The notes beneath the pieces were generated by a model, which ran no database searches, was not told the DNA's origin, and saw only the letters and a program-made list of their open reading frames with translations. DNA of 54,204 bases, from NCBI GenBank assembly GCA_025934485.1, contig JAICXX010000024.1:1-54204 (forward strand), read 5' to 3'. The DNA comes from Chitinophagaceae bacterium (GTDB lineage: Bacteria > Bacteroidota > Bacteroidia > Chitinophagales > Chitinophagaceae). Position numbers and translations under genes: made by a program. Positions 39,313-52,671 of the stretch are shown in pieces (position 1 is the stretch's first letter; the number at the start of each line of letters is the position of its first letter).

Positions 39313-40677
39313 TCACCCTCTGATATGGTATGCCTTAGGCTGCACAAAAGCGCGGATGCCCTGATACGATAACGTCATTCCCAACCCCGAATGCTTCCGC
39401 CCCGACCAGGGCAAACCAGCCGAGACCCGGTCGCAACAATTCCAATAGACCGTGCCGGTATTCAGCTGCCGCATCACCGCCTCGGCACGCTCATAGCTTC
39501 GAGAATATACCGCCGCCGTCAGCCCATATTCCGTATCTGCCATCAACGCGACCGCCTCCGCATCATCCTTCACCCGCTGTATACCCACCACCGGGCCAAA
39601 AGACTCCTCCGTCATCAGCTTCATCGTATGATCGACATCCACCAATACCGCGGGCTGCATAAAATAGCCCTTCCCTTCAAGCGCCTTGCCGCCATAGACC
39701 AAACGCGCCCCCTTATCCACCGCATCCCTGATCTGCGCCAATAAGAACTCCCGCTGGCCCGGACGGCTTAACGGGCCCACATCCGTTCCCTCCCGCGCAG
39801 GATCGCCGATCACCAGTTTTCCTGCCAGCTTCGCATAGGCATCGACGAAAGCATCATACACCTTCTCCTGCACATAGATCCGCTCCACCGCGCAACAGCT
39901 CTGACCGTTGTTATAAACAACACCTTCCAATGCCGCCGCAACGACTTTTTCAATGTCTTCGACATCATCCATGACGTACAACGGATCTTTCCCCCCAAGT
40001 TCCAGCTGCACCGGCACCAGCTTACCCGCGACCTTTTCTGCAATCGATTGCCCGGTACGATAGCTGCCCGTAAAAAAATACCCATTCACCGGTAGTTGTA
40101 ATAGCCACTCTCCTGCCTTACCTTTACCCGCTACCAGTTGAAAAACATTTGCAGGCACACCAGCCGCATGCAGCAGCCGCTGAATATGCAGCCCCGTGAG
40201 CGTAGCATATTCCGACGGTTTATACAACACCCCATTCCCACCGAGCAAAGCCGGTATGAACACATTTATCCCTACGAGGTAAGGATAGTTCCACGCGGAG
40301 ATATTGGCTACGACGCCCAGCGGTTCATAGACTATCTTTTCACGCGTAGTCCCCTCCGTTATAACCCATTCCTCCGCCAGCCACCGCGCCGCATGGTCCA
40401 GCAGCCATCTGGTTCGGCTCCTCGCGCCATTCAATTCATTAAATGATTGCTGCAAAGGCTTGCCGCTCTCGGCTGTCAGCGTCTCCGCCAACACAGGAGC
40501 CTCGGCCTCCAGCAGTTCATAGAATCTTTCGATACATGCTATCCGCGCATCGACCTTCAGCGCCGCCCACTCCGGCTGCCCCTTGCGCAATAAAAAATAT
40601 TTTTCTCTCACCGAGGCCTCGGTATCTTCTATCACTTCTTCAATAATTTTTTCCGTAGTCGGGTTAATGATTTGCAT
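39313..40677 (-). CDS. Aldehyde dehydrogenase, NAD(P)-dependent
   Basis: A 454-residue aldehyde dehydrogenase that oxidises an aldehyde to the acid. The general base is in LELGGKDPLYV, the catalytic Cys in NNGQSCCAVERIYV, and the cofactor loop around NYPYLVGINVFIP and FTGSYRTGQ. The frame runs up to a TTG at 40722, but the ATG at 40677 gives the usual start MQIINPTTEK. In E. coli a homologue (PuuC) oxidises the gamma-glutamyl aldehyde of putrescine breakdown. Here the matching synthetase, alcohol dehydrogenase and hydrolase genes lie on the same strand beyond the peptide island, so this enzyme may be the third step of that pathway. It also resembles succinate-semialdehyde dehydrogenases. Confidence 0.92.
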   Translation of the reverse strand: MQIINPTTEKIIEEVIEDTEASVREKYFLLRKGQPEWAALKVDARIACIERFYELLEAEAPVLAETLTAESGKPLQQSFNELNGARSRTRWLLDHAARWLAEEWVITEGTTREKIVYEPLGVVANISAWNYPYLVGINVFIPALLGGNGVLYKPSEYATLTGLHIQRLLHAAGVPANVFQLVAGKGKAGEWLLQLPVNGYFFTGSYRTGQSIAEKVAGKLVPVQLELGGKDPLYVMDDVEDIEKVVAAALEGVVYNNGQSCCAVERIYVQEKVYDAFVDAYAKLAGKLVIGDPAREGTDVGPLSRPGQREFLLAQIRDAVDKGARLVYGGKALEGKGYFMQPAVLVDVDHTMKLMTEESFGPVVGIQRVKDDAEAVALMADTEYGLTAAVYSRSYERAEAVMRQLNTGTVYWNCCDRVSAGLPWSGRKHSGLGMTLSYQGIRAFVQPKAYHIRG

Positions 40678-40708
40678 ATTAGAACTTTGAGATGATCTGA
40701 TGAATGAA

Positions 40709-40716
40709 CAAAAATA
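40709..40716 (-). promoter_or_regulatory. Candidate -7 element for the aldehyde dehydrogenase gene
   Basis: On the minus strand TATTTTTG matches TAnnTTTG, 31 nt before the ATG at 40677. No clear -33 box is seen. If real, the gene now has its own promoter at the edge of the peptide island. Confidence 0.4.
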
Positions 40717-40878
40717 ATTCAAAAATTTATTGCCTATTAGAAATGAATTAGAATACGGTTAACGTCTTAAAATATTTTTCTTTTTTATTTTTTGAATTTA
40801 AAATTTTGTTTAGATTCGATCATTCGATAGCGCTAATCGATGTTCCCACTCTCATTAATCATTTTAAACCTAACAAAA

Positions 40879-41040
40879 ATGAAAAAGCTGGAATCAAATC
40901 AAATGGCCGAAATTAATGGCGGCATCAACATCGCTGCTTTTGCTTGCGGATTCGGTATCGTAGCGATCGCCGCACAACCCGAACTCGCTCTCGCCTTTGG
41001 GGAAGGAACCGCAATTGCCTGTGCATCTCTCTTCAATTAA
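40879..41040 (+). CDS. Double-glycine leader peptide 1 (bacteriocin-like precursor)
   Basis: A 53-residue precursor. The frame opens upstream, but the ATG at 40879 gives the leader MKKLESNQMAEINGG, with the GG cleavage site read by C39 peptidases. Processing would free a 38-residue, Ala/Gly-rich, hydrophobic core with two cysteines (core positions 8 and 33) that could form one disulfide. This looks like a class II bacteriocin or a signalling peptide. The peptidase-containing exporter, a thioredoxin and ABC genes follow in the same direction. The peptide sequence itself is not one I recognise. Confidence 0.85.
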   Translation: MKKLESNQMAEINGGINIAAFACGFGIVAIAAQPELALAFGEGTAIACASLFN

Positions 41041-41090
41041 CACTTCGCATTTCTCACAGATGATGTAACACTCACTTAAATCTTACATTT

Positions 41091-41255
41091 ATGAAAGTTC
41101 TTAATGAAAATGAACTGGCAACAGTTCAAGGGGGCTTCCCATGGGCCAGCCTCGCCGCCGGCGCCCTTTGTGCCGCAGGCATTCTTACCGCCGAAACCGG
41201 CGCAGGACTCTTGCTAGCAGCCGCAGGTTGCGGCGCGTCTTTCCTCGACGACTAG
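41091..41255 (+). CDS. Double-glycine leader peptide 2 (bacteriocin-like precursor)
   Basis: A 54-residue precursor 50 nt after the first. The leader is MKVLNENELATVQGG, again ending in GG, and the 39-residue core is Ala/Gly/Leu-rich with two cysteines (core positions 12 and 32) and an acidic end (LDD). The core has the same composition and two-cysteine plan as peptide 1 but little direct identity, the pattern of two-component bacteriocins whose subunits work as a pair. Its small size makes it easy to miss in automatic annotation. Confidence 0.85.
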   Translation: MKVLNENELATVQGGFPWASLAAGALCAAGILTAETGAGLLLAAAGCGASFLDD

Positions 41256-41279
41256 CCAGTAAAAACTTATAATCAACGA

Positions 41280-41313
41280 GATGTGGTAGACCCCTCGGTC
41301 TACTACATCTTTT
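41280..41313 (+). terminator. Attenuator-like terminator after the two peptide genes
   Basis: A 13-bp stem (41280-41292 with 41297-41309, one G-T pair) around loop CCTC is followed by TTTT. It stands between the peptide genes and the transport genes, so most transcripts should end here and peptides be made in excess over their exporter. Confidence 0.8.
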
Positions 41314-41329
41314 CTCGCCGATAGTTTGA

Positions 41330-41527
41330 ATGCCGTTCAACATGAAAGATCGTACCGTCTATTTCAAGTTTCTCCTTGCCCTGGGATTCATCCTGTTTGG
41401 GGTATACAGCTATTGCCTAAAAGATAGCTTTACCATAAAAACAGGATGCTGCCTGGCCGTAGGAATGGGCTACCTGATCTATGGCATCTATACCTACAAA
41501 CAAGAACGAAAAAAGAGACCACGCTGA
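41330..41527 (+). CDS. Small two-helix membrane protein of the peptide island
   Basis: A 65-residue protein (61 if it starts at the second ATG, 41342) with two hydrophobic helices (FKFLLALGFILFGVYSYCL and CCLAVGMGYLIYGIYTY) and a basic tail (KQERKKRPR). Its stop overlaps the ABC ATPase start (TGATG). I do not recognise a family. Size, topology and position suit an immunity protein that protects the producer, but this is inference. Confidence 0.7.
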   Translation: MPFNMKDRTVYFKFLLALGFILFGVYSYCLKDSFTIKTGCCLAVGMGYLIYGIYTYKQERKKRPR

Positions 41528-42285
41528 TGAGCGTCATTTTAAAAGATGTTGGTAAACAATACAAAAACAATCACACCTTCGTTTTTCAGGGATTGACGTT
41601 GACCATAGAACCGGGCAGCGTTTATTGCCTGCTGGGCAAAAATGGCGCAGGGAAAAGCACCCTGCTGAATATCGTAACGGATATTATCCGCCCATCCACC
41701 GGCGAACTGTGCATCGATGGCCTTACCTATACACGGGATGCCATCCGGATAAAACGCGGGATGGGTGTGCAAAGCCAGTTTACCCAGCTCATAGGTGAAC
41801 TCAACGCCATGGATTTCCTTAGGTGGACGGGTCTGTTGTATGGAATGGAGAAAAACCGGATCGCAAGCCAGAGCGAGTTTTTACTCGAATTCTTCTTCGA
41901 TAACGAAGGCGACCTCTCGGCTCCGTCAAAAAGCTATTCTTCCGGAATGCAAAAAAAGCTGGTGCTTTGTTCCGCGATCATGCATAAACCCCGCCTTTTG
42001 GTCCTCGATGAACCTTTTGCCAACCTCGACCCCGTCGCCTGTGATAAACTATGCCAATTCATCAACGCCTATCGATCCCCGGATCGCATGGTAATCGTCT
42101 CGTCCCACGATCTCTTGTATGTTGATAAAATAGCTTCGCACATCGGAATACTTCATAATGGCAGCCTGGTATTCAATGACACCTTGACCGCATTCAAAAA
42201 AGATAGCCCTAACCTCGACAAGGAGCTGATGAAGTTCCTGTCACCACCCGAAAATAATTCATCCCTCATAGACCTGGTCGTTTAG
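41527..42285 (+). CDS. ABC transporter ATP-binding protein
   Basis: A 252-residue ATPase with Walker A GKNGAGKST, signature SSGMQKK (a variant of LSGGQ, typical of the NatA/CcmA-like branch), Walker B LLVLDEPFANLDP and the switch His in VSSHD. The open frame extends further upstream, but the ATG at 41527, coupled by 1-nt overlap to the small membrane protein, gives the normal N-terminus. The permease gene starts 1 nt after it. Together they could export the peptides or remove them from the membrane as self-protection. Confidence 0.93.
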   Translation: MSVILKDVGKQYKNNHTFVFQGLTLTIEPGSVYCLLGKNGAGKSTLLNIVTDIIRPSTGELCIDGLTYTRDAIRIKRGMGVQSQFTQLIGELNAMDFLRWTGLLYGMEKNRIASQSEFLLEFFFDNEGDLSAPSKSYSSGMQKKLVLCSAIMHKPRLLVLDEPFANLDPVACDKLCQFINAYRSPDRMVIVSSHDLLYVDKIASHIGILHNGSLVFNDTLTAFKKDSPNLDKELMKFLSPPENNSSLIDLVV

Positions 42286-42286
42286 T

Positions 42287-43675
42287 ATGCAATTACTGGC
42301 GTTTTTACTATACAAAAGAATAACAGCCTATTTTTCCATCAGGTATAACTGGAAAGGCCTCGTCATGGACGCATTATTGGCGGCCCTCTTCCTTTTCTAT
42401 GGCCTGGCGCTGGCCATGCTTTATGACTACAGCCTTCATCACCAGGCGCCGGGTCTTCCGGAGCCGATCCATCTCTTGAGCGGCATGGCCTGTTCCCTGT
42501 TGATAGCCCCCACCCTGCTCCGGCTTTTCCCGGGATTCGGATTAAAGACCACCCTCGTAAGCCCTCACTATCCGCAAACCAAACCCCTTATCGCCACGCT
42601 GGACCTTGTTGCCATGGGACTGTGCAAAACGAGAAATGCGATCTATCTCCTCTTCCTCCTGGCCTTCTATAACGTTTCCTACGGGCTGCCTTCCGGAACG
42701 CCGGCAACCCTGATCCTCCTGCTTGCGATCGGCATCGTGATGGCGGAGAGCCTCGTGAATGCCCTCTCCTGGCGCATCTATTTCCACACGCTGATCCTGG
42801 CTATCCTCTTCGTAGTGCTGCTTTGGAGCATTCGCAACTATAGTGAATCCGTTCCAATGGAGCTGAACCTCGGCCTCATGGCCACCCTCATCGTCCTTAT
42901 CGGCCTGTATTTCTTATTCTACCAGACGGAAATGGACGAAACCCGGTCGTCTTCGCTTTTTATGGCAAAGCCCGGTGCGCCACGCGGGAGACCCGGCACT
43001 TCGCGGCGCAACCGCAACCCCTATCTGCTCGTTCTCGCCGGAAACAGACCCTTTCTCATCGTACTTGGCGTCGGCCTCTTTTTTAAATTGTTGATCATGG
43101 CCGTCTTTGTTTTCAATAAAGGATACACCCTCGATGAGGCCTTATCGAGAGCGCCTTTCATCCTCTGCCTGATCATGCCCGTAATCCTGTTCTCCTATGT
43201 CTATAATAATTTCTGGGGATATTTCTATACCGTCGCTATCAACAACCTGATCACCGGGAACGACGCCGGCCCCCAGATCCGGCTATACCTGTATTTCCTT
43301 ACCCCAGCATTCCTGCTCGACGCGGTATTCACCGCAGCCATCCTCATGGTGCGGCATATGCTTGACGCCAAGATCATCCTTTGCTACCTCGCCATGACGG
43401 CCCTCTGTATCCCCGTGGGCATCATCAGCTCCTTCAGAAAATACTTTTTTGTCCCGGGGGTATTCGACTTCCAGCAAATGAGGGGCAAGACCAGCCGGTT
43501 CTACACCTTTAGCCTGCTCATTCCCGCCTTGCTGCTCGGTTTTCTTTATAACGAAGACCGGCTTTTCGCCGCCGCCTTAGCGGCGATCACGATCATCGCA
43601 ATAACACTATTCGTTTACATTCACCGTAACAAACAATCCTTATTGAGCAAATTAAAAGGGAACTTCTTTTCCTGA
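42287..43675 (+). CDS. Multi-helix ABC-2-type permease partner
   Basis: A 462-residue polytopic membrane protein with about 10-12 hydrophobic helices and no recognisable enzyme motif. Its position 1 nt after the ATPase gene and its helix-rich make-up support a role as the membrane half of the transporter. It is not close to any permease I can name. It ends 30 nt before the next membrane protein. Confidence 0.75.
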   Translation: MQLLAFLLYKRITAYFSIRYNWKGLVMDALLAALFLFYGLALAMLYDYSLHHQAPGLPEPIHLLSGMACSLLIAPTLLRLFPGFGLKTTLVSPHYPQTKPLIATLDLVAMGLCKTRNAIYLLFLLAFYNVSYGLPSGTPATLILLLAIGIVMAESLVNALSWRIYFHTLILAILFVVLLWSIRNYSESVPMELNLGLMATLIVLIGLYFLFYQTEMDETRSSSLFMAKPGAPRGRPGTSRRNRNPYLLVLAGNRPFLIVLGVGLFFKLLIMAVFVFNKGYTLDEALSRAPFILCLIMPVILFSYVYNNFWGYFYTVAINNLITGNDAGPQIRLYLYFLTPAFLLDAVFTAAILMVRHMLDAKIILCYLAMTALCIPVGIISSFRKYFFVPGVFDFQQMRGKTSRFYTFSLLIPALLLGFLYNEDRLFAAALAAITIIAITLFVYIHRNKQSLLSKLKGNFFS

Positions 43676-43705
43676 TCCGGAATAAAATTATTAAACCTCT
43701 TGAAT

Positions 43706-44368
43706 ATGAATACGACAGCAGCCAAACCCAATGATTTTTACGCCTTCAAATTCTGGTATGTCTTCTTCGCCTACGCGGTCATGTATGTCTTGCTCACCTT
43801 TCTGGCAAACCGCTACGTGTACACGCCCGAATTCTATTATTCTCTTTTTCACAATACCCTGGACTCCGATCGGATCGGGCAGCTCATTGACCGAAATCAT
43901 CAATACCAATGGACGAGCTATTTGGTCCAGCCTTTATTTCTGCTTTTAAGATGCGCCATCTTCGCTTCCGTTCTTTTTGCGGGACTGTTGCTCTCAAAGC
44001 AAAGCCTGAGCTTTGGCAAATGCCTCAAAATTGTCATTATTGCGGATGGAGTGGCCCTGATCGTTACGCTTATCCGCACCGCCTGGTTCATCCTGCGGCC
44101 GGAATCCTCGCCCATAGATTTTCAAACGTTCTATCCGCTTTCCATCATTCAGCTGATGGACATACACAAAATACCCAAATATCTTATCTACCCCTTGCAA
44201 CAGATCAACCTCTTCGAGGTCTGCTATTGGGTACTCCTGGCATTCGGTATAAAAACCCTCACAGGCCGCAAATGGGGTCGATCCTTTACAGTGGTCGCGG
44301 CTACCTATGGTATTTCCATGCTCATCTGGATCCTCGCCGTTGTCTTTATAACCCTGCAATTCAGCTGA
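43706..44368 (+). CDS. Five-helix membrane protein of the peptide island
   Basis: A 220-residue membrane protein. The frame begins at a TTG (43700), but the ATG at 43706 (MNTTAAKPND) is preferred. Five hydrophobic segments are visible (such as FWYVFFAYAVMYVLLTFLA and IVIIADGVALIVTLIRTAWF). It lacks the paired cysteines of DsbB/VKOR or MauE proteins, so it is probably not a redox partner of the thioredoxin that follows after 3 nt. Function unknown; an immunity or export-accessory role is possible. Confidence 0.6.
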   Translation: MNTTAAKPNDFYAFKFWYVFFAYAVMYVLLTFLANRYVYTPEFYYSLFHNTLDSDRIGQLIDRNHQYQWTSYLVQPLFLLLRCAIFASVLFAGLLLSKQSLSFGKCLKIVIIADGVALIVTLIRTAWFILRPESSPIDFQTFYPLSIIQLMDIHKIPKYLIYPLQQINLFEVCYWVLLAFGIKTLTGRKWGRSFTVVAATYGISMLIWILAVVFITLQFS

Positions 44369-44371
44369 TCC

Positions 44372-44899
44372 ATGAAAAAATTGCTTGCAACCGTGCTAAT
44401 TGCCGCCGTCGTCTTTCTCATCGGCTGGCTCGGCTATAAAATTTACCGGGTCAAGGCCAGAAAAGAAACGCTTGCAGGCGCTATAGTGACCCTTCCTTCT
44501 TTTTCCTTTTACAAGCTGGACAATACGCCATTCACGGCGGACAGTGTGGCAAATAACAAGGATCGCTTGATCATCATGCTGTTTAGCCCCGATTGCGAAC
44601 ACTGCCAATACACGGCAAAAAGCTATGTGCAGCACAGGCAGGAACTCGAGTCGAGCAAAATTCTCATGGTGACCCTGGCAGATAGCCTTTCCGCAACAAA
44701 ATTCTATACCAACTACCAGCTCAACACCCTGCCGAACATCGTGATGCTGCGTGACCCCCAAATGACCTTTCCCAAGACCTTTGGCGCAGGGATGATCCCT
44801 ACTTTCCTGGTCTATAAGAATGGAAAGCTCATCAACCGGTTTATCGGCGAGACCCGGGTGGACAATCTGTTGAGCGATAGTACAATGACCGCTAAATAG
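44372..44899 (+). CDS. Membrane-anchored thioredoxin-like protein (TlpA type)
   Basis: A 175-residue protein with an N-terminal signal anchor (residues 4-22) and a periplasmic thioredoxin fold. The redox motif is CEHC (Cys75, Cys78) in FSPDCEHCQYTAK, and the cis-proline loop is GAGMIPTFLVY. It could form or reshuffle the single disulfide that each two-cysteine peptide core allows. It lies 3 nt after the membrane protein and 6 nt before the exporter gene, so it is part of the same operon. Confidence 0.9.
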   Translation: MKKLLATVLIAAVVFLIGWLGYKIYRVKARKETLAGAIVTLPSFSFYKLDNTPFTADSVANNKDRLIIMLFSPDCEHCQYTAKSYVQHRQELESSKILMVTLADSLSATKFYTNYQLNTLPNIVMLRDPQMTFPKTFGAGMIPTFLVYKNGKLINRFIGETRVDNLLSDSTMTAK

Positions 44900-44905
44900 C
44901 AGGAT

Positions 44906-47086
44906 ATGGAAACAAAAAAGCTAAAACACGTACGGCGAACATTCGTTCTGCAACACGACCGATCGGACTGCGGGGTCGCATGTCTCCTGTCCCTGGTGCG
45001 GTATTATGGCGGCGAGAACAGCCTGGAGAATTTACGCAATTTAAGCGGCACCAATGTTTCGGGAACATCCTTGCTTGGCCTGTCCCAGGCAGCCACGCAT
45101 ATCGGATTTATCGCCCAGGGCTGCCAGGCGGATATGGAAGCCTTGCTCCAACATCCCTCTCCGGTGATCCTGCACGTCCATCTCAATGATTTCCTGCAGC
45201 ATTATGTAGTTTGCTATGGCCACACCACGGTGGAAGACAATACGATATTTACAGTGGGCGACCCCGAAAAAGGCGTAATAAAAATGTCCCGGGATGAGCT
45301 GGCGAACAGCTGGAGATCCGGTTTTTGTCTTACACTCGAAGTGGGCGGCGAATTCAAAAAGGAAGCGGCCCTTCGAAATCAGCGGACCAGCTGGTTCAAG
45401 AGCCTCATCCGGGAGGATCTTCCTCTCCTCTCGGTAGCCTCCGGACTGGGTATTGTGATCGCCATACTTGGAACGACCATGATGATCTTTTCCCAGCGCC
45501 TCATCGACAACATCATCCCCACGCACGACTATGTCAAGTTATACCTGGGAGTTCTCCTCGTGATCCTGCTCCTTTTAATGCGGGAAGGCGCAAATGCACT
45601 CCGGACACGCTTCCTCATCGATCAGAGCAGGAATTTCAACCTCAGGATCATCGATCGGTTCTACAACCACCTGCTCCGCTTGCCCGCCACCTTTTTCGAA
45701 ACCCGCAAGACCGGAGAATTCACCGCCCGGCTGAATGATACCGCCCGGGTTCAAAAAGTGATCAGCCAGCTGGCAGGAAATACCATCATCGATGGATTGG
45801 CGGTGCTCGTCCTTTTTTGCTTTCTTTTCATGTATTCCTGGCATGTCGCGCTCATCTGCCTGGTCGCACTGCCGCTGTATTACTGGCTTATTTATACTTT
45901 CAACAAACCCATCCGGAAAGAACAACACAATATCATGGCGAACTACGCCATGGCGGAATCCAATTTCATCTCGACCTTTCAGGGCATCGATCCGATCAGG
46001 AATTACACCCTGCAAGGCTTATTCAAAAAACGAAACGACGCCGTATATACGGGTTACCAGGATACCATTTTTTCACTGGGTCAGATCCAGATCAAGCTAA
46101 CTTTCCTGGCTAATGGCTTCGGCGTATTGTTCCTGGGTACCGTCATATTATGGGAATCCTATAGCGTTTTCCACGGACACCAAAAGGTCGGTGTACTAAT
46201 GGCTGTATTGGGAATGTGTACCTCGCTGCTTACGAGCGTGGCGAACCTCGCCCTCGTTACCATACCGCTCAATGAAGCCAGGATTGCCTTCAACCGGATG
46301 ATGGAGTATACGAATATGAACACGGAAAACGAAGCGGGTCTGGCCATAAAGGATTTCTCTTCCATCTCCGTCCGGGACATCGGCTTCCGTTTCCCAGGAA
46401 GGGTCCCGCTGCTAAAAAACATTTCCATTGAAGCCGCAAAAGGCGAAATAGTAGCCATCATGGGCGAGAATGGCTGCGGCAAAAGCACTATCGGGAAAAT
46501 AATTCAAAAGAAATACACACCCGAAAAAGGCACGATAACCGTGAACGGGAATACGCCCCTGGATTCGATCAGCTTATCCTCCTGGCGAAAAATAGTGGGC
46601 GTCGCCGCGCAGGATATCCACCTGTTCAATGGCACCGTTCTGGAGAACATCGCATTTGACGATGCGCAAAACAATCCGGCAGCCGTAGTACAATTTCTCG
46701 GGGAATATGGATTCGGCCCCTTCATGGACAGTCTGCCGCAATCCTATATGACCATCGTCGGCGAGACGGGCATAGCCTTATCCGGCGGCCAAAAACAAAT
46801 GATAACTTTTGCAAGGGCGCTCTACCATCGCCCCCAGCTCCTCATCCTGGATGAAACCAACTCCGCCCTCGATAGACTCACCGAGCGCTTTATGCTGAAT
46901 CTATTATCCAGGCTCAAAAAGGATATAGCGATCATTTTTATCACCCATCGCTTACATACCCTAAAATCCGTTTGTGACAGGATCTATGTGATCAACAATG
47001 GAACGGTCTCGGTGAGCGGCAATCACCACGACCTCCTGCAAAGCGAGAACCTGTACAGCCTCTATTGGCAGGACCTTAAAAATTGA
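44906..47086 (+). CDS. Peptidase-containing ABC exporter (C39 type) for double-glycine peptides
   Basis: A 726-residue bacteriocin-type exporter that cuts the leader after GG and pumps the core peptide out. Residues about 10-140 are the C39 peptidase (QHDRSDCGVACLLSLVRYYG, Cys22; HYVVCYG, His99; VGDPEKG). Six membrane helices follow (about 170-440), then the ATPase with GENGCGKST, LSGGQKQ and LLILDETNSALD. All active-site motifs are intact. It is the last gene of the island and ends 5 nt from the convergent hydrolase gene. No HlyD-type adaptor or outer-membrane channel is encoded in the island. Confidence 0.96.
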   Translation: METKKLKHVRRTFVLQHDRSDCGVACLLSLVRYYGGENSLENLRNLSGTNVSGTSLLGLSQAATHIGFIAQGCQADMEALLQHPSPVILHVHLNDFLQHYVVCYGHTTVEDNTIFTVGDPEKGVIKMSRDELANSWRSGFCLTLEVGGEFKKEAALRNQRTSWFKSLIREDLPLLSVASGLGIVIAILGTTMMIFSQRLIDNIIPTHDYVKLYLGVLLVILLLLMREGANALRTRFLIDQSRNFNLRIIDRFYNHLLRLPATFFETRKTGEFTARLNDTARVQKVISQLAGNTIIDGLAVLVLFCFLFMYSWHVALICLVALPLYYWLIYTFNKPIRKEQHNIMANYAMAESNFISTFQGIDPIRNYTLQGLFKKRNDAVYTGYQDTIFSLGQIQIKLTFLANGFGVLFLGTVILWESYSVFHGHQKVGVLMAVLGMCTSLLTSVANLALVTIPLNEARIAFNRMMEYTNMNTENEAGLAIKDFSSISVRDIGFRFPGRVPLLKNISIEAAKGEIVAIMGENGCGKSTIGKIIQKKYTPEKGTITVNGNTPLDSISLSSWRKIVGVAAQDIHLFNGTVLENIAFDDAQNNPAAVVQFLGEYGFGPFMDSLPQSYMTIVGETGIALSGGQKQMITFARALYHRPQLLILDETNSALDRLTERFMLNLLSRLKKDIAIIFITHRLHTLKSVCDRIYVINNGTVSVSGNHHDLLQSENLYSLYWQDLKN

Positions 47087-47091
47087 AAAGT

Positions 47092-47826
47092 TCAATAGCC
47101 GCGCTTTGCTATCTCGGATATAAATCTATCCCTGATATTTCTGTACAATGGAATATCCCCTACCTCATTCACATACATCCGCTCCGGATGCCACTGCACC
47201 GCCAGCAAAAAGCTCCGTCCCTCAGGTTCCGCCCATTCAACCCCCTCGATCGTCCCATCCTCCGCACGACAGTTGACCCGCAATTCTTCCGCCAGCCGCG
47301 CAATGGCCTGGTGATGCGCACTATTGACCAGCCCCAGCGTCCCCAAATCCCCGCTCGACGCAGCCCCGGCGCCCAAAGCTCCCACGATCGACGCCAACAG
47401 ACTCCCCCGCTCGACCCTTACCGCATGTTGCTTGTCTGCCGCGGCCGTCCCTTCATGCACCGCATCCCCGTCCTCTCCCAGGTCCTGGACAAGACTCCCG
47501 CCCAGCGCGACATTGATCAACTGCAACCCCCGGCATACGCCGAACACCGGGATCCTCCGCTCCAGCGCCCGCTCCAGCGCCCCCAGCTCAAAAAGATCAC
47601 GGGCCCGCTCCCAGACATTCGGCGAATGCGCATAGGCGTTATCGCCCGAATAGAATTCCGGGGCGATATCCACACCACCCGACAGCACCAGCGCGTCGAG
47701 CTCGCCACCACCATCCCCGCCGGCCTCTATCCTGACGACCTCGATGGAGGCGTCTCCTGCCTGTATCCACCGTGCATAGTTGTCATGCTTTTTATCCGAT
47801 CCCGTATAGGTTAACCCGATTCTCAT
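47092..47826 (-). CDS. Class I glutamine amidotransferase-like gamma-glutamyl hydrolase (PuuD-like)
   Basis: A 244-residue peptidase C26 enzyme that cleaves gamma-glutamyl amides. The nucleophile elbow is VFGVCRGLQLINVALGG, with the catalytic His in VQWHPE and another conserved stretch AHHQAI. In putrescine catabolism PuuD releases GABA from gamma-glutamyl-GABA. Here it overlaps the iron-dependent alcohol dehydrogenase gene by 4 nt and would release the free acid in the last step of the proposed pathway. Its end is only 5 nt from the convergent exporter gene. Confidence 0.93.
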   Translation of the reverse strand: MRIGLTYTGSDKKHDNYARWIQAGDASIEVVRIEAGGDGGGELDALVLSGGVDIAPEFYSGDNAYAHSPNVWERARDLFELGALERALERRIPVFGVCRGLQLINVALGGSLVQDLGEDGDAVHEGTAAADKQHAVRVERGSLLASIVGALGAGAASSGDLGTLGLVNSAHHQAIARLAEELRVNCRAEDGTIEGVEWAEPEGRSFLLAVQWHPERMYVNEVGDIPLYRNIRDRFISEIAKRGY

Positions 47827-48992
47827 AGTGCTTCCAAATACAAATTTTTAAAATCCTCACGGCTCACCGGCTTAGGATTGTTGGGATGCGCAAAATCGGC
47901 AATCGCCAGATCGGCCAGCGTCTCGACATGCTCCGACTTCACACCCGTATCCCGCAACCGCACCGGCAACCGAAGCTCCTGGTTCAGGGCAAACAACCGC
48001 TGCACCACGGCCTCGCCGCTCTCCTCCGTAAGCTCCATCGCCCGCGCTATCCGCCGGAACTTGTCTTCAAAACCCGCTATATTGAACCGCATCCCATAAG
48101 GCAGGTTAACGGCATTGGCCAGACCATGATGGGTGTCCAGCAACGATGATAGAGGATGCGCCAGCGAATGCACCACACCCAGCCCTTTTTGAAAAGCCAC
48201 CGCACCCATCAGCGAAGCGATCATCATCTTGCTCCGCGACTCGATATCGGGTTTCAGCACCGCCTGCGCGATCGAGCCATTGATCAGCTCCACACCCTGC
48301 AAGGCGATGCCCTCGCACATCGGATGCCAGTTCTTCGCGAGATAGGCTTCCAGGTTATGCGTCAGCGCATCCATGCCCGTTGCCGCGGTGACGAACGGCG
48401 GCAGCTCCATCGTCAGCAACGGATCGGCAAAAACGATCTTTGCCAACAGCTTGGGTGAGAACAAGATCCTTTTCCTGTGCGTGTCATCTTCGCTGATGAT
48501 GGCGCTCCGCCCCACCTCGCTGCCCGTGCCACTGGTGGTAGGCACGGTCACAAAATACGGCACCTCCTCCGTGACATATACATCGCCGCCAATGAGATCA
48601 TCATAGTCGAACAGGTCCCGCCGGTGATGTACCCTGAGGACAATGGCCCTCGCCACATCCATCGCAGCCCCGCCGCCGATCCCGACAATCGAATCCCGAT
48701 CCGTGCCGGCAAAGACATCCCCTCCCTTCAGCACATCCGATTTTACCGGGTTCTTATGGATCTCGGAAAAGACCTCCACCGAAAGCCCCTTGGCCCGCAA
48801 CGCCTTCACAATGCCGGCAAAAAAATCCAGCTGCGCCACCATCGGGTCGGTCACCAGCAAAAGCCGCCGCAACCCCTCCGAGGCCAGATGGTCCGGAAGT
48901 TCCCGGATCACACCCGCTCCAAAACGGATGACGGTCGGAAAATTATATTGCCGGATGGTGTTGAAATCTGTTCGAACCGCATCCACTCCCAT
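47823..48992 (-). CDS. Iron-containing alcohol dehydrogenase (type III)
   Basis: A 389-residue metal-dependent alcohol dehydrogenase. The nucleotide site is GIGGGAAMDVARAI; the metal ligands lie in GMDALTHNLEAYL and in VHSLAHPLSSLLDTHHGLAN. An earlier ATG at 49052 would overlap the previous gene by 56 nt; the ATG at 48992, 4 nt after that gene, is preferred. In place of the amine oxidase (PuuB) found in putrescine clusters, an alcohol dehydrogenase here points to a substrate with a hydroxyl group, such as ethanolamine in gamma-glutamylated form. It overlaps the hydrolase gene by 4 nt. Confidence 0.93.
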   Translation of the reverse strand: MGVDAVRTDFNTIRQYNFPTVIRFGAGVIRELPDHLASEGLRRLLLVTDPMVAQLDFFAGIVKALRAKGLSVEVFSEIHKNPVKSDVLKGGDVFAGTDRDSIVGIGGGAAMDVARAIVLRVHHRRDLFDYDDLIGGDVYVTEEVPYFVTVPTTSGTGSEVGRSAIISEDDTHRKRILFSPKLLAKIVFADPLLTMELPPFVTAATGMDALTHNLEAYLAKNWHPMCEGIALQGVELINGSIAQAVLKPDIESRSKMMIASLMGAVAFQKGLGVVHSLAHPLSSLLDTHHGLANAVNLPYGMRFNIAGFEDKFRRIARAMELTEESGEAVVQRLFALNQELRLPVRLRDTGVKSEHVETLADLAIADFAHPNNPKPVSREDFKNLYLEAL

Positions 48993-48996
48993 TGAA

Positions 48997-49719
48997 TTAA
49001 TTTTTAGATTGGGTACAAAATTGAAATAATTTCTCCAGGTCGCCCTGTACATTGAAATTGATCTTATTTGCCTTTACAAATTGATCAAAGCTTTTCTTAT
49101 CGCCGCCGTATAGTTTCATAAAGGCGGTCTTGCCAGCACTCTCCATATCGCCGATCTTATAATAGATAAGCCAATAACTCGTCTTTCTCACCACAAAGAT
49201 ATCCTGATTTAAAACCAGCGGCAGCGTTCCCTGCCGGCCGCTGACCGCGTTGATCATCTCAACACCGCCGCTCTGTCTGGACTCGCCCATGCCACCGTTT
49301 TGCACGGGTTCGAATGTCGTCCGGCGGTAAACGGCCAGTTTCCAGGGACCGGCCGCCGCTACGATTTGAAAATATCCTTTTTGATAATCATAGACCCATG
49401 AAGAGCTGTCCATTCCGATGGAGTCGATATCCTCTCCATTCGTGATCGCCAACGTATCCCCCTTCTTGTTGATAAATTGCATATCGCATAGAACCAGGTT
49501 AAAATTCATTTTATAGGTAAACGATCTTCCATCGCGGAATTCCACCGCGGCATTCTGAAAATCAGGAAAGAGATAGCTATAGTGATGTGAAATGCTGTCC
49601 CCCGCATGAATGATCAATTTGTTGTATTCCTGCGCATGAACTCTAACACCTTGCATGACCAGCGCCGCGAAATAAAGAACCGCCGGTACATATTTCATGT
49701 TGCGCCTTAGTTGTATCAT
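48997..49719 (-). CDS. Secreted protein of unknown function within the gamma-glutamyl operon
   Basis: A 240-residue product with a signal peptide (MKYVPAVLYFAALVMQ, cut near VHAQ). The frame reaches 49821, but that part overlaps the synthetase gene; the ATGs at 49719 and 49698 are realistic. The mature protein is rich in beta-type sequence (AVEFRDGRSFTYKMNFNLVL, SSWVYDYQKGYFQIV) with no motif I recognise. It sits 16 nt after the synthetase and 4 nt before the alcohol dehydrogenase, which is odd for a periplasmic protein among cytoplasmic enzymes. Confidence 0.7.
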   Translation of the reverse strand: MIQLRRNMKYVPAVLYFAALVMQGVRVHAQEYNKLIIHAGDSISHHYSYLFPDFQNAAVEFRDGRSFTYKMNFNLVLCDMQFINKKGDTLAITNGEDIDSIGMDSSSWVYDYQKGYFQIVAAAGPWKLAVYRRTTFEPVQNGGMGESRQSGGVEMINAVSGRQGTLPLVLNQDIFVVRKTSYWLIYYKIGDMESAGKTAFMKLYGGDKKSFDQFVKANKINFNVQGDLEKLFQFCTQSKN

Positions 49720-49735
49720 GACGTTTATTTTTATT

Positions 49736-51157
49736 TCAAATGATCTCAAAATACCTTTTCCATTCCCAGTCTGTGACCGCGGAGCCAAACTGCCGCCACT
49801 CCCACTCCCGTGTCCGCACAAAATGATCTACAAATCCCTCCCCGAAAAGTTCTTTCGCCAGAGCGCTATGCCGCATGTTCTGCGTAGCCTCCCAGAGATT
49901 GCGCGGCAGCACACCATGACTCTTATCGGCATACCCGTTCCCGCGCGTCGCCGGCGTCGTAAGCATCAACCCCTCCCGAACCCCATACAAGCCCGCCGCC
50001 AGACATGCCGCCATAGCCAGATAAGGATTCGAGTCCGAACCCACCACCCGCGTCTCCAAACGCGTAGATCTGTCGCTGCCCGGCAAGGCCCGCAAGGCCA
50101 CCGTGCGGTTGTCGACTCCCCACGTTAGCGTCGTCGGCGCCCAGGCCCCCTCCACGAGTCGCTTATAACTATTTACCGTCGGCGCGACCATGGGCAGGAT
50201 ATGCGGGAGACAATACAACTGCCCGGCAATATAGCTTTCCATGACCGGGCTCATCCCCGTCGGCGCCGACGCATCATAGAAAAGGTTACGGCTCCCATCC
50301 GCCGTCCACAGACTCTGGTGCACATGACCACTGCATCCCGGCAGATCGGCGCTGATCTTCGCCATAAAGGTGGGTACCACCCCATGGCGGTGCGCGATCT
50401 CTTTGACCCCGGCTTTGAAAAGCACCGCCCGGTCCGCCGCCTCCAGTACATCGGCATACAGGATCGCGGCTTCATACACCCCCGGCCCCGTCTCCGTATG
50501 CAGGCCTTCCAGGGGTACGCCATATCGTTTAAGCTCATCAAAAAGCGCATGAAAATAAGCGCTCCCCTGCGAAGCCCGCAGGATGGAGTAACCGAACATA
50601 CCCTGCGTCATCGGCTTCAACGTCGCAGGCGACAAAGGCTCCCCCGCCGCCGGCGCAAGGAAATTGAACCACTCGAATTCCTGCGAGAACACCGCGGAAT
50701 ACCCCGCTGCGGCCGCCTGCGCGATCACCCGCTTCAAGAGACCCCGCGGACACACCCGCAAAGCATCTTCCGCGGCCCGCGTCGAATTTGGCTCCGTCGT
50801 GCCTGCGGCCCCCGCCGAAGAACCGGCCCCCGCTCTGAAATCCGCCAGGAAGAAAGGCATCCCCCCCTCCCAAGGCACCCGCCGGAACGTCCCGGCATCG
50901 ACCACCGCCACCGCATCGGGATACCCGGTATGCCAACCGGTAAAAGTCCCATTGTCATAGGCCCGGTCCTCAGCATCCCAGCCAAACACCACATCACAAA
51001 AACCAAAACCCTTCTCGGCAATAGACACAAATTTTTCAAAAGCCATCACCTTGCCACGCAAGACGCCGTCGACATCTACAATGGCCACCTTGACCTTCTC
51101 GGTAGACGCAGCAGCCAGTTGCTGCAAAAGCTCAGGGAGTGTTAATTTTTTTACCAT
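49736..51157 (-). CDS. Glutamine synthetase-family gamma-glutamyl-amine ligase (PuuA/GlnA-like)
   Basis: A 473-residue member of the glutamine synthetase superfamily. Signatures include FSQEFEWFNF (metal-binding Glu), ISADLPGCSGHVHQSL (metal-binding His), and WGVDNRTVALRALPGSDRST with the glutamate-binding Arg residues, then TRLETRVVGSDSNPYLAMAA. The beta-grasp N-domain starts at the ATG at 51157; the frame upstream begins with TTG inside a repeat. The neighbours, an amine-type permease, alcohol and aldehyde dehydrogenases and a gamma-glutamyl hydrolase, argue that it joins glutamate to an amine and does not make glutamine. Confidence 0.9.
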   Translation of the reverse strand: MVKKLTLPELLQQLAAASTEKVKVAIVDVDGVLRGKVMAFEKFVSIAEKGFGFCDVVFGWDAEDRAYDNGTFTGWHTGYPDAVAVVDAGTFRRVPWEGGMPFFLADFRAGAGSSAGAAGTTEPNSTRAAEDALRVCPRGLLKRVIAQAAAAGYSAVFSQEFEWFNFLAPAAGEPLSPATLKPMTQGMFGYSILRASQGSAYFHALFDELKRYGVPLEGLHTETGPGVYEAAILYADVLEAADRAVLFKAGVKEIAHRHGVVPTFMAKISADLPGCSGHVHQSLWTADGSRNLFYDASAPTGMSPVMESYIAGQLYCLPHILPMVAPTVNSYKRLVEGAWAPTTLTWGVDNRTVALRALPGSDRSTRLETRVVGSDSNPYLAMAACLAAGLYGVREGLMLTTPATRGNGYADKSHGVLPRNLWEATQNMRHSALAKELFGEGFVDHFVRTREWEWRQFGSAVTDWEWKRYFEII

Positions 51158-51163
51158 AAAATG

Positions 51164-51204
51164 TGCGGCAAATGCGCCGCAAGCAAAATAGCGCATTTGC
51201 CGCA
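51164..51204. repeat. 14-bp perfect inverted repeat before the ligase gene
   Basis: TGCGGCAAATGCGC (51164-51177) and GCGCATTTGCCGCA (51191-51204) form a perfect stem with a 13-nt loop. It ends 7 nt before the ATG at 51157 (minus strand), where it could control translation or be a regulator site. Confidence 0.75.
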
Positions 51205-51208
51205 AAGC

Positions 51209-51295
51209 GCCAATGATTGCCCTTCGAGCGTGCCGGCCCAATGCCGTCAAAAGGCCAATGATTGCCCTATCGGGCGTGCCGGCCTTTGGCCGTCA
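51209..51295. repeat. Tandem duplication of the permease 3' end
   Basis: Two copies of a 41-42 nt segment (51209-51249 and 51254-51295) share most positions, including GCCAATGATTGCCCT and GCGTGCCGGCC. The second copy holds the last codons and stop of the permease. In the first copy the stop position has changed, so it looks like a duplicated, decayed gene end. Confidence 0.8.
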
Positions 51296-52586
51296 GGCAA
51301 AACGCAATATAGCTCACCAGTAAAATGGAAAAATAGATAATAGATAATTTAACATACAACGTCACCAGCGCGACAAGACACACCGCAGCGATCCCCAACG
51401 CCACCACCGGAAATACCGGATAGAACGGCACCCGGAACGGCCGCTCCAGTCCCGGCTCACGACGCCGAAGCGCAATACAAGTCACCATCGAGATCACATA
51501 CAAGGTCAACGCCCCTAACACCGAGATCGTGATGATATCGTCCGTTCTACCCGTAAGCAACGCGATAATTCCCACCACCATATTGGCCAGCAACGCGGCG
51601 GCCGGTGTCCCCCGCGACTCCAAAGTCCGCCCCAATGCCGCCGGCAGATACCGCACCCGGCCGAACTCCAACGTCGCCCGCCCCGCCGCCAGGATAAGCC
51701 CATGGAACGACGCGACAAGCCCCATCAACCCGATCGAAACGAGAAGGTGATACGTCCAGCCACCCGTCCCCGTGATCTTCGACAAGGCCAGCGGCAACGG
51801 ACTGTTGGAGGCCTCTGCCCCCGGTGATGGATAAACGATGGCTTCCCAGCCTGCCACCCCCACCGAAGCCAGGAACACCAGCACACACAACAGGATCAGC
51901 GTACCCAGCGCGGAGCCGAACCCCAACAGCACATTCCGCTGCGGCCGCACCACCTCCTCGGCCACATTGGCCACGCCCTCGAGTCCCAAAAAAAACCAAA
52001 TGGCAAAAGGGATCGCCGCCCATGCTCCCTGCCACCCATGAGGGAACGAATTCCGCGTCAGATTCCCCCACGAAAAATGTGGCAGCGTGACACCGGAAAA
52101 GATCAGCAGCTCGACAACGGCCAGGATCGTGATCACCAGCTCGAAACCCGCCGCGGCCCTCACGCCATAGATGTTCAGCCCCGTAAAAAGCACATATGCC
52201 ACTACCGCAAACGCCGTCTCCGGTATCATCGGAAAAAAGATATGGAAATAGGCGCCGATACCCGCCGCGATGGCCGGCGGCGCAAAGACGAACTCGATAA
52301 GCTGCGCCACCCCGGCTACAAACCCCCAGTCCCTGTTCAACCCCCGGTTAGCATAATCAAAGACCCCCCCGGCACGGGGAATGGCACAAGCAAGCTCGGT
52401 ATACGAAAAGGTGAAGGTGATGTACAGGAGGATCGCTCCCGCCGTGGCGATGGCCAACCCGGCCGTTCCCCCCGCGGCAAGCCCGAGATTCCACCCGAAA
52501 TACATCCCGGAAATAACATATCCCACACCCAGACCCCATAACATCCAGGGACCTAAGGTGCGGGATAATGCAGTGTTTTCGCTCAT
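51267..52586 (-). CDS. APC-family amino acid/ethanolamine-type permease
   Basis: A 439-residue, 12-helix transporter of the amino acid-polyamine-organocation family. The ATG at 52586 (MSENTALSRTLGPWMLWGLG) is chosen over an upstream frame start. YVISGMYFGWNLGLAAGG and ELACAIPRAGGVFDYANRGL recall the ethanolamine permease (Eat) branch, though putrescine or amino acid transport cannot be excluded. It heads the operon with the ligase, alcohol dehydrogenase and hydrolase, and would bring in the amine to be glutamylated. Confidence 0.9.
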   Translation of the reverse strand: MSENTALSRTLGPWMLWGLGVGYVISGMYFGWNLGLAAGGTAGLAIATAGAILLYITFTFSYTELACAIPRAGGVFDYANRGLNRDWGFVAGVAQLIEFVFAPPAIAAGIGAYFHIFFPMIPETAFAVVAYVLFTGLNIYGVRAAAGFELVITILAVVELLIFSGVTLPHFSWGNLTRNSFPHGWQGAWAAIPFAIWFFLGLEGVANVAEEVVRPQRNVLLGFGSALGTLILLCVLVFLASVGVAGWEAIVYPSPGAEASNSPLPLALSKITGTGGWTYHLLVSIGLMGLVASFHGLILAAGRATLEFGRVRYLPAALGRTLESRGTPAAALLANMVVGIIALLTGRTDDIITISVLGALTLYVISMVTCIALRRREPGLERPFRVPFYPVFPVVALGIAAVCLVALVTLYVKLSIIYFSILLVSYIAFCLTAKGRHAR

Positions 52587-52600
52587 GCCTAAATATAGCA

Positions 52601-52643
52601 AGCGCGGCCAGGTTTTCCTAAAAAAATTAACCCTGGCCGCGCT
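52601..52643. terminator. 12-bp perfect inverted repeat between susD and the permease gene
   Basis: AGCGCGGCCAGG (52601-52612) pairs with CCTGGCCGCGCT (52632-52643), loop 19 nt. On the minus strand it follows the susD stop by 28 nt and ends 14 nt before the permease ATG. It could end the susCD transcript or regulate the permease; the only T-run is in the loop. Confidence 0.55.
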
Positions 52644-52671
52644 CACCCGCGGACCGGAATACGAAAGCTCA

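Follow-up and report, generated by a model that had tools for sequence, protein, structure and literature searches.

Few bacteriocins are known from the Bacteroidales (PMC10352776). The bacteroidetocins are made from a locus of four genes, which encode a five-transmembrane (TM) protein, a precursor with a double-glycine (GG) leader, a thiol oxidoreductase and an ATP-binding cassette (ABC) exporter with a C39 peptidase, and which yield active toxin in Escherichia coli without an HlyD gene in the set (Coyne et al. 2019, PMC6671954). Deleting the gene of the TM protein or of the thiol oxidoreductase attenuates the activity; no immunity gene was identified in that study, and the producers are self-inhibited (PMC6671954). 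A 2022 review repeats the statement on the missing immunity gene for a new Bacteroides class, presumably the bacteroidetocins (PMC10233263). We analyzed a stretch of 54,204 nt (the window) from a Chitinophagaceae bacterium (assembly GCA_025934485.1, contig JAICXX010000024.1). It contains an island of eight genes, all on the plus strand at 40879–47086, for two GG precursors (P1 and P2), a small membrane protein (SM61), an ABC ATPase, a polytopic membrane protein (PERM), a five-helix membrane protein (TM220), a thioredoxin and a C39 exporter (Table 1). The island appears to be rightly filed as a bacteroidetocin-type module with different cargo, and on balance it is probably a two-peptide, disulfide-closed toxin system of the bacteroidetocin kind with its own predicted immunity.

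The five-TM protein, GG precursor, thiol oxidoreductase, C39 ABC exporter and lack of HlyD are common to both loci, and the leaders of P1 and P2, which have 15 residues each and end in GG, lie within the 15–16 residues of bacteroidetocin leaders (PMC6671954). A preliminary description of this DNA had called the missing HlyD adaptor unusual for a Gram-negative system. This view was not sustained, because the published four-gene locus yields active toxin in E. coli without it (PMC6671954). Pfam and NCBIfam searches, which covered the eight island genes and not the remainder of the genome, revealed no membrane fusion protein domain. The cargo, however, differs. Mature bacteroidetocins have 42–53 aa (PMC8546649), a range that excludes the predicted P1 and P2 cores of 38 and 39 aa, and bacteroidetocins A and B have four cysteines, whereas P1 and P2 have two each, fitting only the wide set of 19 (at least two cysteines). 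The island also differs in having two precursors, placed first in the operon, anionic, hydrophobic cores, and the extra genes for SM61 and the ATPase/PERM pair. The bacteroidetocin-like peptides compared here were four-cysteine peptides beginning with KFWG: locus L238 has the published bacteroidetocin order (TM220, a four-cysteine KFWG peptide, thioredoxin, C39), and similar peptides lie near TM220 in L095, L214 and L240; P1 and P2 do not group with them. The gene order in L238 suggests indirectly that TM220 may be homologous to the published TM protein (EH213_1845). Since the bacteroidetocin locus shares it, the locus plan is already known and novelty is limited to that extent; what is new is the peptide pair with its candidate immunity.

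Class IIb two-peptide bacteriocins of Gram-positive bacteria are encoded as adjacent, dissimilar GG precursors followed by a gene for a small membrane protein and served by a C39 exporter, and their subunits carry GxxxG helix-contact motifs. The island is alike in its adjacent, dissimilar GG precursors within one operon, the small membrane protein behind them and the C39 exporter; it is unlike in its two-cysteine anionic cores, thioredoxin, TM220 and Gram-negative host, and joint action of its peptides is only predicted. Class IIa microcins, such as microcin V, share with the island the GG leader, C39 exporter, a hydrophobic core and, as predicted for the island, disulfides as the sole modification and an adjacent small immunity protein with TM helices, but they use the membrane fusion protein CvaA and are single, larger peptides (PMC10233263, PMC9746304). 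Microcins V and L have a neutral or anionic core, and microcins N, PDI and S a positive one (PMC10233263, PMC9746304). In Bacillus, SDP is a 42-residue peptide with one disulfide, and the ABC pump that protects the cell from it has its assembly modulated by YknW, a Yip1 protein (PMC4887032). The island resembles this system in its predicted one-disulfide peptides and in an ABC exporter encoded beside TM220, a remote YknW relative. It differs in that the role of YknWXYZ is protection of the cell, with no C39 peptidase function (PMC4887032), and in that the island has no YknX-type adaptor. The pediocin PA-1 operon (PedC/BrcD) likewise combines a dedicated disulfide protein with a C39 exporter (PMC5465099); the island thioredoxin reached the PedC/BrcD model with an E value of 0.031 and 14.1 bits (cut-off 120).

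As the preliminary description had claimed, the island begins with two GG precursors carrying exactly two cysteines each, with a spacing of 25 residues in P1 and 20 in P2. Only P2 reached a bacteriocin model, the NCBIfam bacteriocin signature TIGR01847 (19.6 bits, cut-off 15.7); its match to Pfam Bacteriocin_IIc was below the cut-off. A database of ~5.8 billion proteins contained six further homologues of each precursor. Both cysteines were kept in 6/6 homologues of P1 and 5/6 of P2, the exception (P0007) having a different C-terminus, and in three P2 homologues (P0005–P0007) the leader ended in AG instead of GG. When the assembly was searched with an alignment of related precursors that included P1 and P2, at E values up to 1, nothing besides these two was found.

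The precursors belong with a conserved set of genes. From named genomes, which belonged to Chitinophagaceae, Flavobacteriaceae, Chryseobacterium, Pedobacter, Prevotellaceae and others, we took the best 80 relatives of the exporter, of which the 60 with at least 2.5 kb of upstream sequence formed the counting set. TM220 was present in all 60, and 59 also had a thioredoxin within the range used; the exception was L074, whose nearest thioredoxin begins ~3.1 kb upstream. In the named loci, 96 GG precursors lay on the coding strand versus 6 on the other strand, and for those with exactly two cysteines the counts were 68 versus 1. Absence of the precursors from relatives that keep the exporter had been named as the finding that would speak against the system; instead, two-cysteine GG precursors adjoined the module in 47/60 loci, and two or more were present in 19. 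Searches with TM220 matched 10 of 294 family genomes and 30 of 395 phylum genomes, the window's own being counted in both. Among nine loci annotated from two family searches, TM220 was followed by the exporter in seven, with the thioredoxin between them in six (L008, L023, L024, L026, L027 and L028) and without it in L025; the window exporter is 51–61% identical to six aligned relatives with an adjoining thioredoxin. Thus, TM220, the anchored thioredoxin and the C39 exporter are a conserved module.

As a control, 40 C39 loci were taken from a Pfam search of 118 genomes; these were mainly full-length exporter frames and included L213 and L214, which have shorter frames and whose TM220 was known beforehand. 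In the five control loci with the module, two cysteines were found in 6/9 candidate precursors (2/3 without L213 and L214), and in the 35 without it (L198 having a thioredoxin match only) two cysteines were found in 3/28 and four to eight in 17/28. Five module-free C39 loci (L175, L177, L178, L182 and L183) each have more than one GG precursor in the range of four to eight cysteines, a separate substrate class.

The module loci together yielded 127 distinct precursors, 94 of them with a 15-residue leader, and the leader consensus was close to MKKLELNQMENIQGG. In the strict set, defined by leaders of 14–18 residues (n=104), exactly two cysteines were present in 81 precursors, and the median cysteine spacing was 33. 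The 81 two-cysteine cores contained 17% Ala and 17% Gly, had a mean GRAVY of 0.90 and were slightly negative on average (46 negative, 21 neutral and 14 positive). Cores were compared by local alignment z-scores, and 42/93 remained single at z 6, indicating high diversity between loci. At L068:5902-8534 (Aquimarina), several cysteine-rich GG precursors of another type adjoin the module, with leaders such as MNVAQLDSIKGG, perhaps a second peptide family.

The two precursors recur as a pair. The best outside matches of P2 were L097:4208 (z 10.8) and L094:7235 (z 6.5), both second peptides of adjacent pairs, and those of P1 were first peptides of such pairs, in L096 (z 4.3) and L097 (z 3.7). The adjacent pair of L097, from a Chryseobacterium metagenome-assembled genome, matches P1/P2 in the same order, and the pairs of L094 (Chryseobacterium vrystaatense) and L096 (Aquimarina) are related to it. 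Counting precursors that have two to four cysteines, 24 loci had at least two, and 22 of them had exactly two. In these 22 loci, concordant pair types, counted as pairs of loci whose partners both match, numbered 10 at z 3, versus 3.27 in shuffles that ignore shared ancestry, with 2/1000 shuffles as high; at z 3.5, 4 and 5 they numbered 9, 6 and 5, versus 1.68, 1.06 and 0.40 in such shuffles, with 0/1000 as high in each case. Partners within one locus were dissimilar (median z 0.73), indicating two kinds of peptide rather than duplicates. The recurrence of pairs appears to be good support for two subunits, but it is not final, because the shuffles ignore common descent, the P1 match is modest and many loci have one precursor. 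In L224, two adjacent hydrophobic four-cysteine precursors lie ~2.3–2.6 kb upstream of TM220, near an ATPase, PERM and the module, possibly a two-disulfide version of a pair.

Immunity genes of class II microcins adjoin the structural gene, and their products are small membrane proteins of 51–216 aa (PMC10233263). An open reading frame (ORF) of 40–100 residues with two hydrophobic stretches, starting no more than 150 nt after a two-cysteine precursor, was found in 25/58 loci, versus 13/873 control stops, which were positions after other ORFs of the same loci. With a looser hydropathy cut, the count rose to 31/58 loci, now including the SM61 gene of the window, versus 18/873. SM61 occupies the usual position of the immunity gene and is a candidate immunity protein; it had no family match above the cut-off in Pfam or NCBIfam. 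For the ATPase, the best NCBIfam models were DrrA and the lantibiotic-protection model TIGR03740, both below the cut-off, and no Pfam match was obtained in 8/8 members of the PERM family. Because of its position and the below-cut-off similarity to lantibiotic-protection ATPases, the ATPase/PERM pair may have a role in self-protection.

For TM220, the AlphaFold2 model showed five long helices (pLDDT 94.1) and gave no clear PDB match. NCBIfam YknW was matched by 18/65 aligned TM220 members (best E value 2.7e-6) and Pfam Yip1 by 5/65 (best 2.3e-5), and the window's own TM220 reached YknW at 0.0067 (15.9 bits, cut-off 110). Matches this weak point to remote kinship. By analogy with YknW, TM220 may assist the exporter. 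If this reading is right, the five-TM protein of bacteroidetocin-type loci, hitherto unexplained, would gain a likely family, YknW/Yip1, and with it a testable role in exporter assembly without HlyD. Among the 34 loci from the phylum-wide TM220 search, a thioredoxin lay downstream in range in 18, an exporter in 19 and neither in 14 (L215, L220, L225–L233, L235, L241 and L242). These 14 indicate that TM220 relatives also have other uses and suggest another role for the YknW/Yip1-like family.

The preliminary description had placed an attenuator hairpin after the second precursor, and the hairpin is real: the fold comprises 15 uninterrupted pairs (z -3.78), and 0/200 shuffles were equally stable. 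A terminator-like hairpin was found 3' of 17/92 precursors (mononucleotide shuffles 0.002), and in 16 of these cases no other precursor lay in the next 300 nt. In the island, the predicted effect of the hairpin is to end many transcripts early, so that more precursor than transporter would be made. The exporter would then cut both leaders and pump the cores out, with TM220 helping its assembly in place of an HlyD adaptor, and the anchored thioredoxin would close one disulfide per core. The P1 and P2 cores would act together on competing bacteria, and the producer would be protected by SM61 and the ATPase/PERM pair. In this scheme we infer the cleavage and export of the peptides, the closing of their disulfides, their synergy and killing, and the immunity of the producer.

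As regards the system proposed in the preliminary description, the peptides proved to be a real precursor family tied to the thioredoxin and exporter module, the two-subunit idea gained statistical support, and a candidate immunity gene lies at the expected place. Several observations nevertheless weigh against a paired toxin with immunity. TM220 homologues occur without the module, as noted above, and in the TM220-drawn sample only 11 of the 20 loci with a thioredoxin or exporter had a strict two-cysteine precursor, 3 had two or more and 6 had a four-cysteine one. Pairing is not universal, with a single strict two-cysteine precursor in 39/59 loci (some of them short), the match of P1 to its counterparts is modest, and the pairing shuffles take no account of ancestry. 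The P1 and P2 cores are anionic, unlike bacteroidetocins A and B, and by reading they contain no strict GxxxG, although the motif is enriched over the 81 two-cysteine cores as a set (144 versus 102.5; 54/81 cores have one). The second hydrophobic stretch of SM61 is weak (best 19-residue mean 1.29), and PERM has neither a family nor a fold match and a poor structure model (pLDDT 68). The same counts of single precursors suit a different account, in which P1 and P2 are independent single-peptide toxins, bacteroidetocin-like, that share one export module without joint action. This account also draws on L240, where two four-cysteine KFWG/KFFG-type peptides stand side by side, and on the activity of bacteroidetocins as single synthetic peptides (PMC6671954). 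We consider it unlikely, though it is the most serious competitor, as the same partner types are found together more often than in shuffles, the two peptides of a locus are unlike, and in L044, L073 and L096 one small two-helix ORF, not two, lies behind the precursor pair.

A role of the peptides as secreted signals in population sensing or in the control of biofilms, and not as toxins, seems improbable to us. A response-regulator match lay no more than 2.5 kb upstream of the first precursor in 8/46 loci, versus ~0.03 expected per window, which favors signaling; three of these eight loci seeded the model, and the independent count is 5/43. No regulator or receptor gene, however, lies within the island, immunity-like genes follow the precursors, and cores as diverse between loci as those described above are unlike a conserved pheromone. 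The three seeding loci carry divergent response regulators upstream of the precursors (L023:4866-5531, L024:3519-4193 and L027:5995-6633), which we take to be LuxR-type. Slightly more improbable still is a reading in which ATPase and PERM form a second exporter, or a drug pump, that has nothing to do with self-protection, and in which the peptides serve the envelope in some way. Neither family nor fold searches gave a known relative for PERM, most module loci lack an ATPase/PERM match, and L009 has the pair without a module match in the stretch examined, all of which would suit such a pump; against it, the two genes sit among the module genes in several lineages (L008, L037, L109, L199 and L224). 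In L089, whose contig begins at PERM, a PERM homologue adjoins the module.

Beyond the window, we tentatively propose, with confidence somewhat short of an even call, that a large and rapidly changing class of peptides, which are disulfide-closed, anionic and hydrophobic, has taken over the bacteroidetocin export module throughout the Bacteroidota. In this view the peptides often form pairs, as two-subunit Gram-negative toxins with dedicated small two-helix immunity proteins, the YknW/Yip1-like protein and the thioredoxin stand in for the HlyD adaptor and for the general machinery of disulfide formation, and the copy in the window was gained horizontally and has an ABC pump for self-protection in addition. 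If this is true, one export module serves a far wider set of two-cysteine peptides, often paired and with candidate immunity genes, in many Bacteroidota families. Bulk mining with IIBacFinder has already covered class II candidates in Bacteroidota (PMC12648078), so peptides of the P1/P2 type may already be listed there, which limits the novelty. No paired system of this kind was found in the literature searched.

Table 1. Features of the island (positions in the window)
Feature	Position	Strand	Description
P1	40879..41040	+	GG precursor, 53 aa; predicted core INIAAFACGFGIVAIAAQPELALAFGEGTAIACASLFN, 38 aa, 2 Cys, net charge -2
P2	41091..41255	+	GG precursor, 54 aa; predicted core FPWASLAAGALCAAGILTAETGAGLLLAAAGCGASFLDD, 39 aa, 2 Cys, net charge -3
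Hairpin	41278..41311	+	15 bp, then T-rich stretch; predicted attenuator/terminator separating the precursors from the operon remainder
SM61	41342..41527	+	61 aa, two hydrophobic stretches, basic tail; candidate immunity protein by position and size
ABC ATPase	41527..42285	+	Pfam ABC_tran 2.8e-24; candidate self-protection transporter
PERM	42287..43675	+	462 aa, polytopic membrane protein, ~10 hydrophobic stretches; presumed permease for the ATPase
TM220	43706..44368	+	Five-helix membrane protein of bacteroidetocin-type module; remote YknW/Yip1 relative
Thioredoxin-like protein	44372..44899	+	Pfam Thioredoxin 5e-9, CEHC motif, N-terminal hydrophobic anchor; predicted disulfide catalyst
C39 peptidase-ABC exporter	44906..47086	+	PF03412 3.8e-29, ABC_membrane 3.1e-31, ABC_tran 1e-29
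Whole island	40678..47091	.	Sits between two catabolic-operon genes that adjoin each other in relatives

The arrangement of eight genes on one strand agreed with the preliminary description, and Pfam domains confirmed its identification of the thioredoxin and the C39 exporter. The intergenic gaps were, in order, 50 nt, 86 nt (74 nt from an alternative in-frame ATG of SM61 at 41330), an overlap of 1 nt, and 1, 30, 3 and 6 nt. The thioredoxin has a single hydrophobic stretch, at its N-terminus, and both of its cysteines were invariant in 7/7 aligned sequences. The exporter was the sole PF03412 match in the 6.75-Mb assembly (381 contigs, 93% complete).

A catabolic operon on the minus strand is interrupted by the island and so lies in two parts (39313–40722 and 47092–52646), which contain in order an ethanolamine-type permease, a glutamine-synthetase-like ligase, an iron alcohol dehydrogenase, a C26 amidotransferase and an aldehyde dehydrogenase; the immediate flanks are the amidotransferase gene (47092–47826, minus strand) and the aldehyde dehydrogenase gene (39313–40722, minus strand). 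The GC content of the island was 0.490, versus 0.546 in the remainder of the window. A search for terminal repeats of the island found none, and TM220 was present in 0/5 other same-genus genomes listed. The amidotransferase was matched in 30/147 family genomes. In 23 of the 29 loci outside the window, including the same-genus G035 and G127, it neighbored the aldehyde dehydrogenase, and in 22 of these 23 the alcohol dehydrogenase preceded both genes, as in the window; for the other six loci, the stretch retrieved held no aldehyde dehydrogenase, in some cases because it stops at that point. Because the flanking operon genes are contiguous in 23/29 relatives, the island was most likely acquired.

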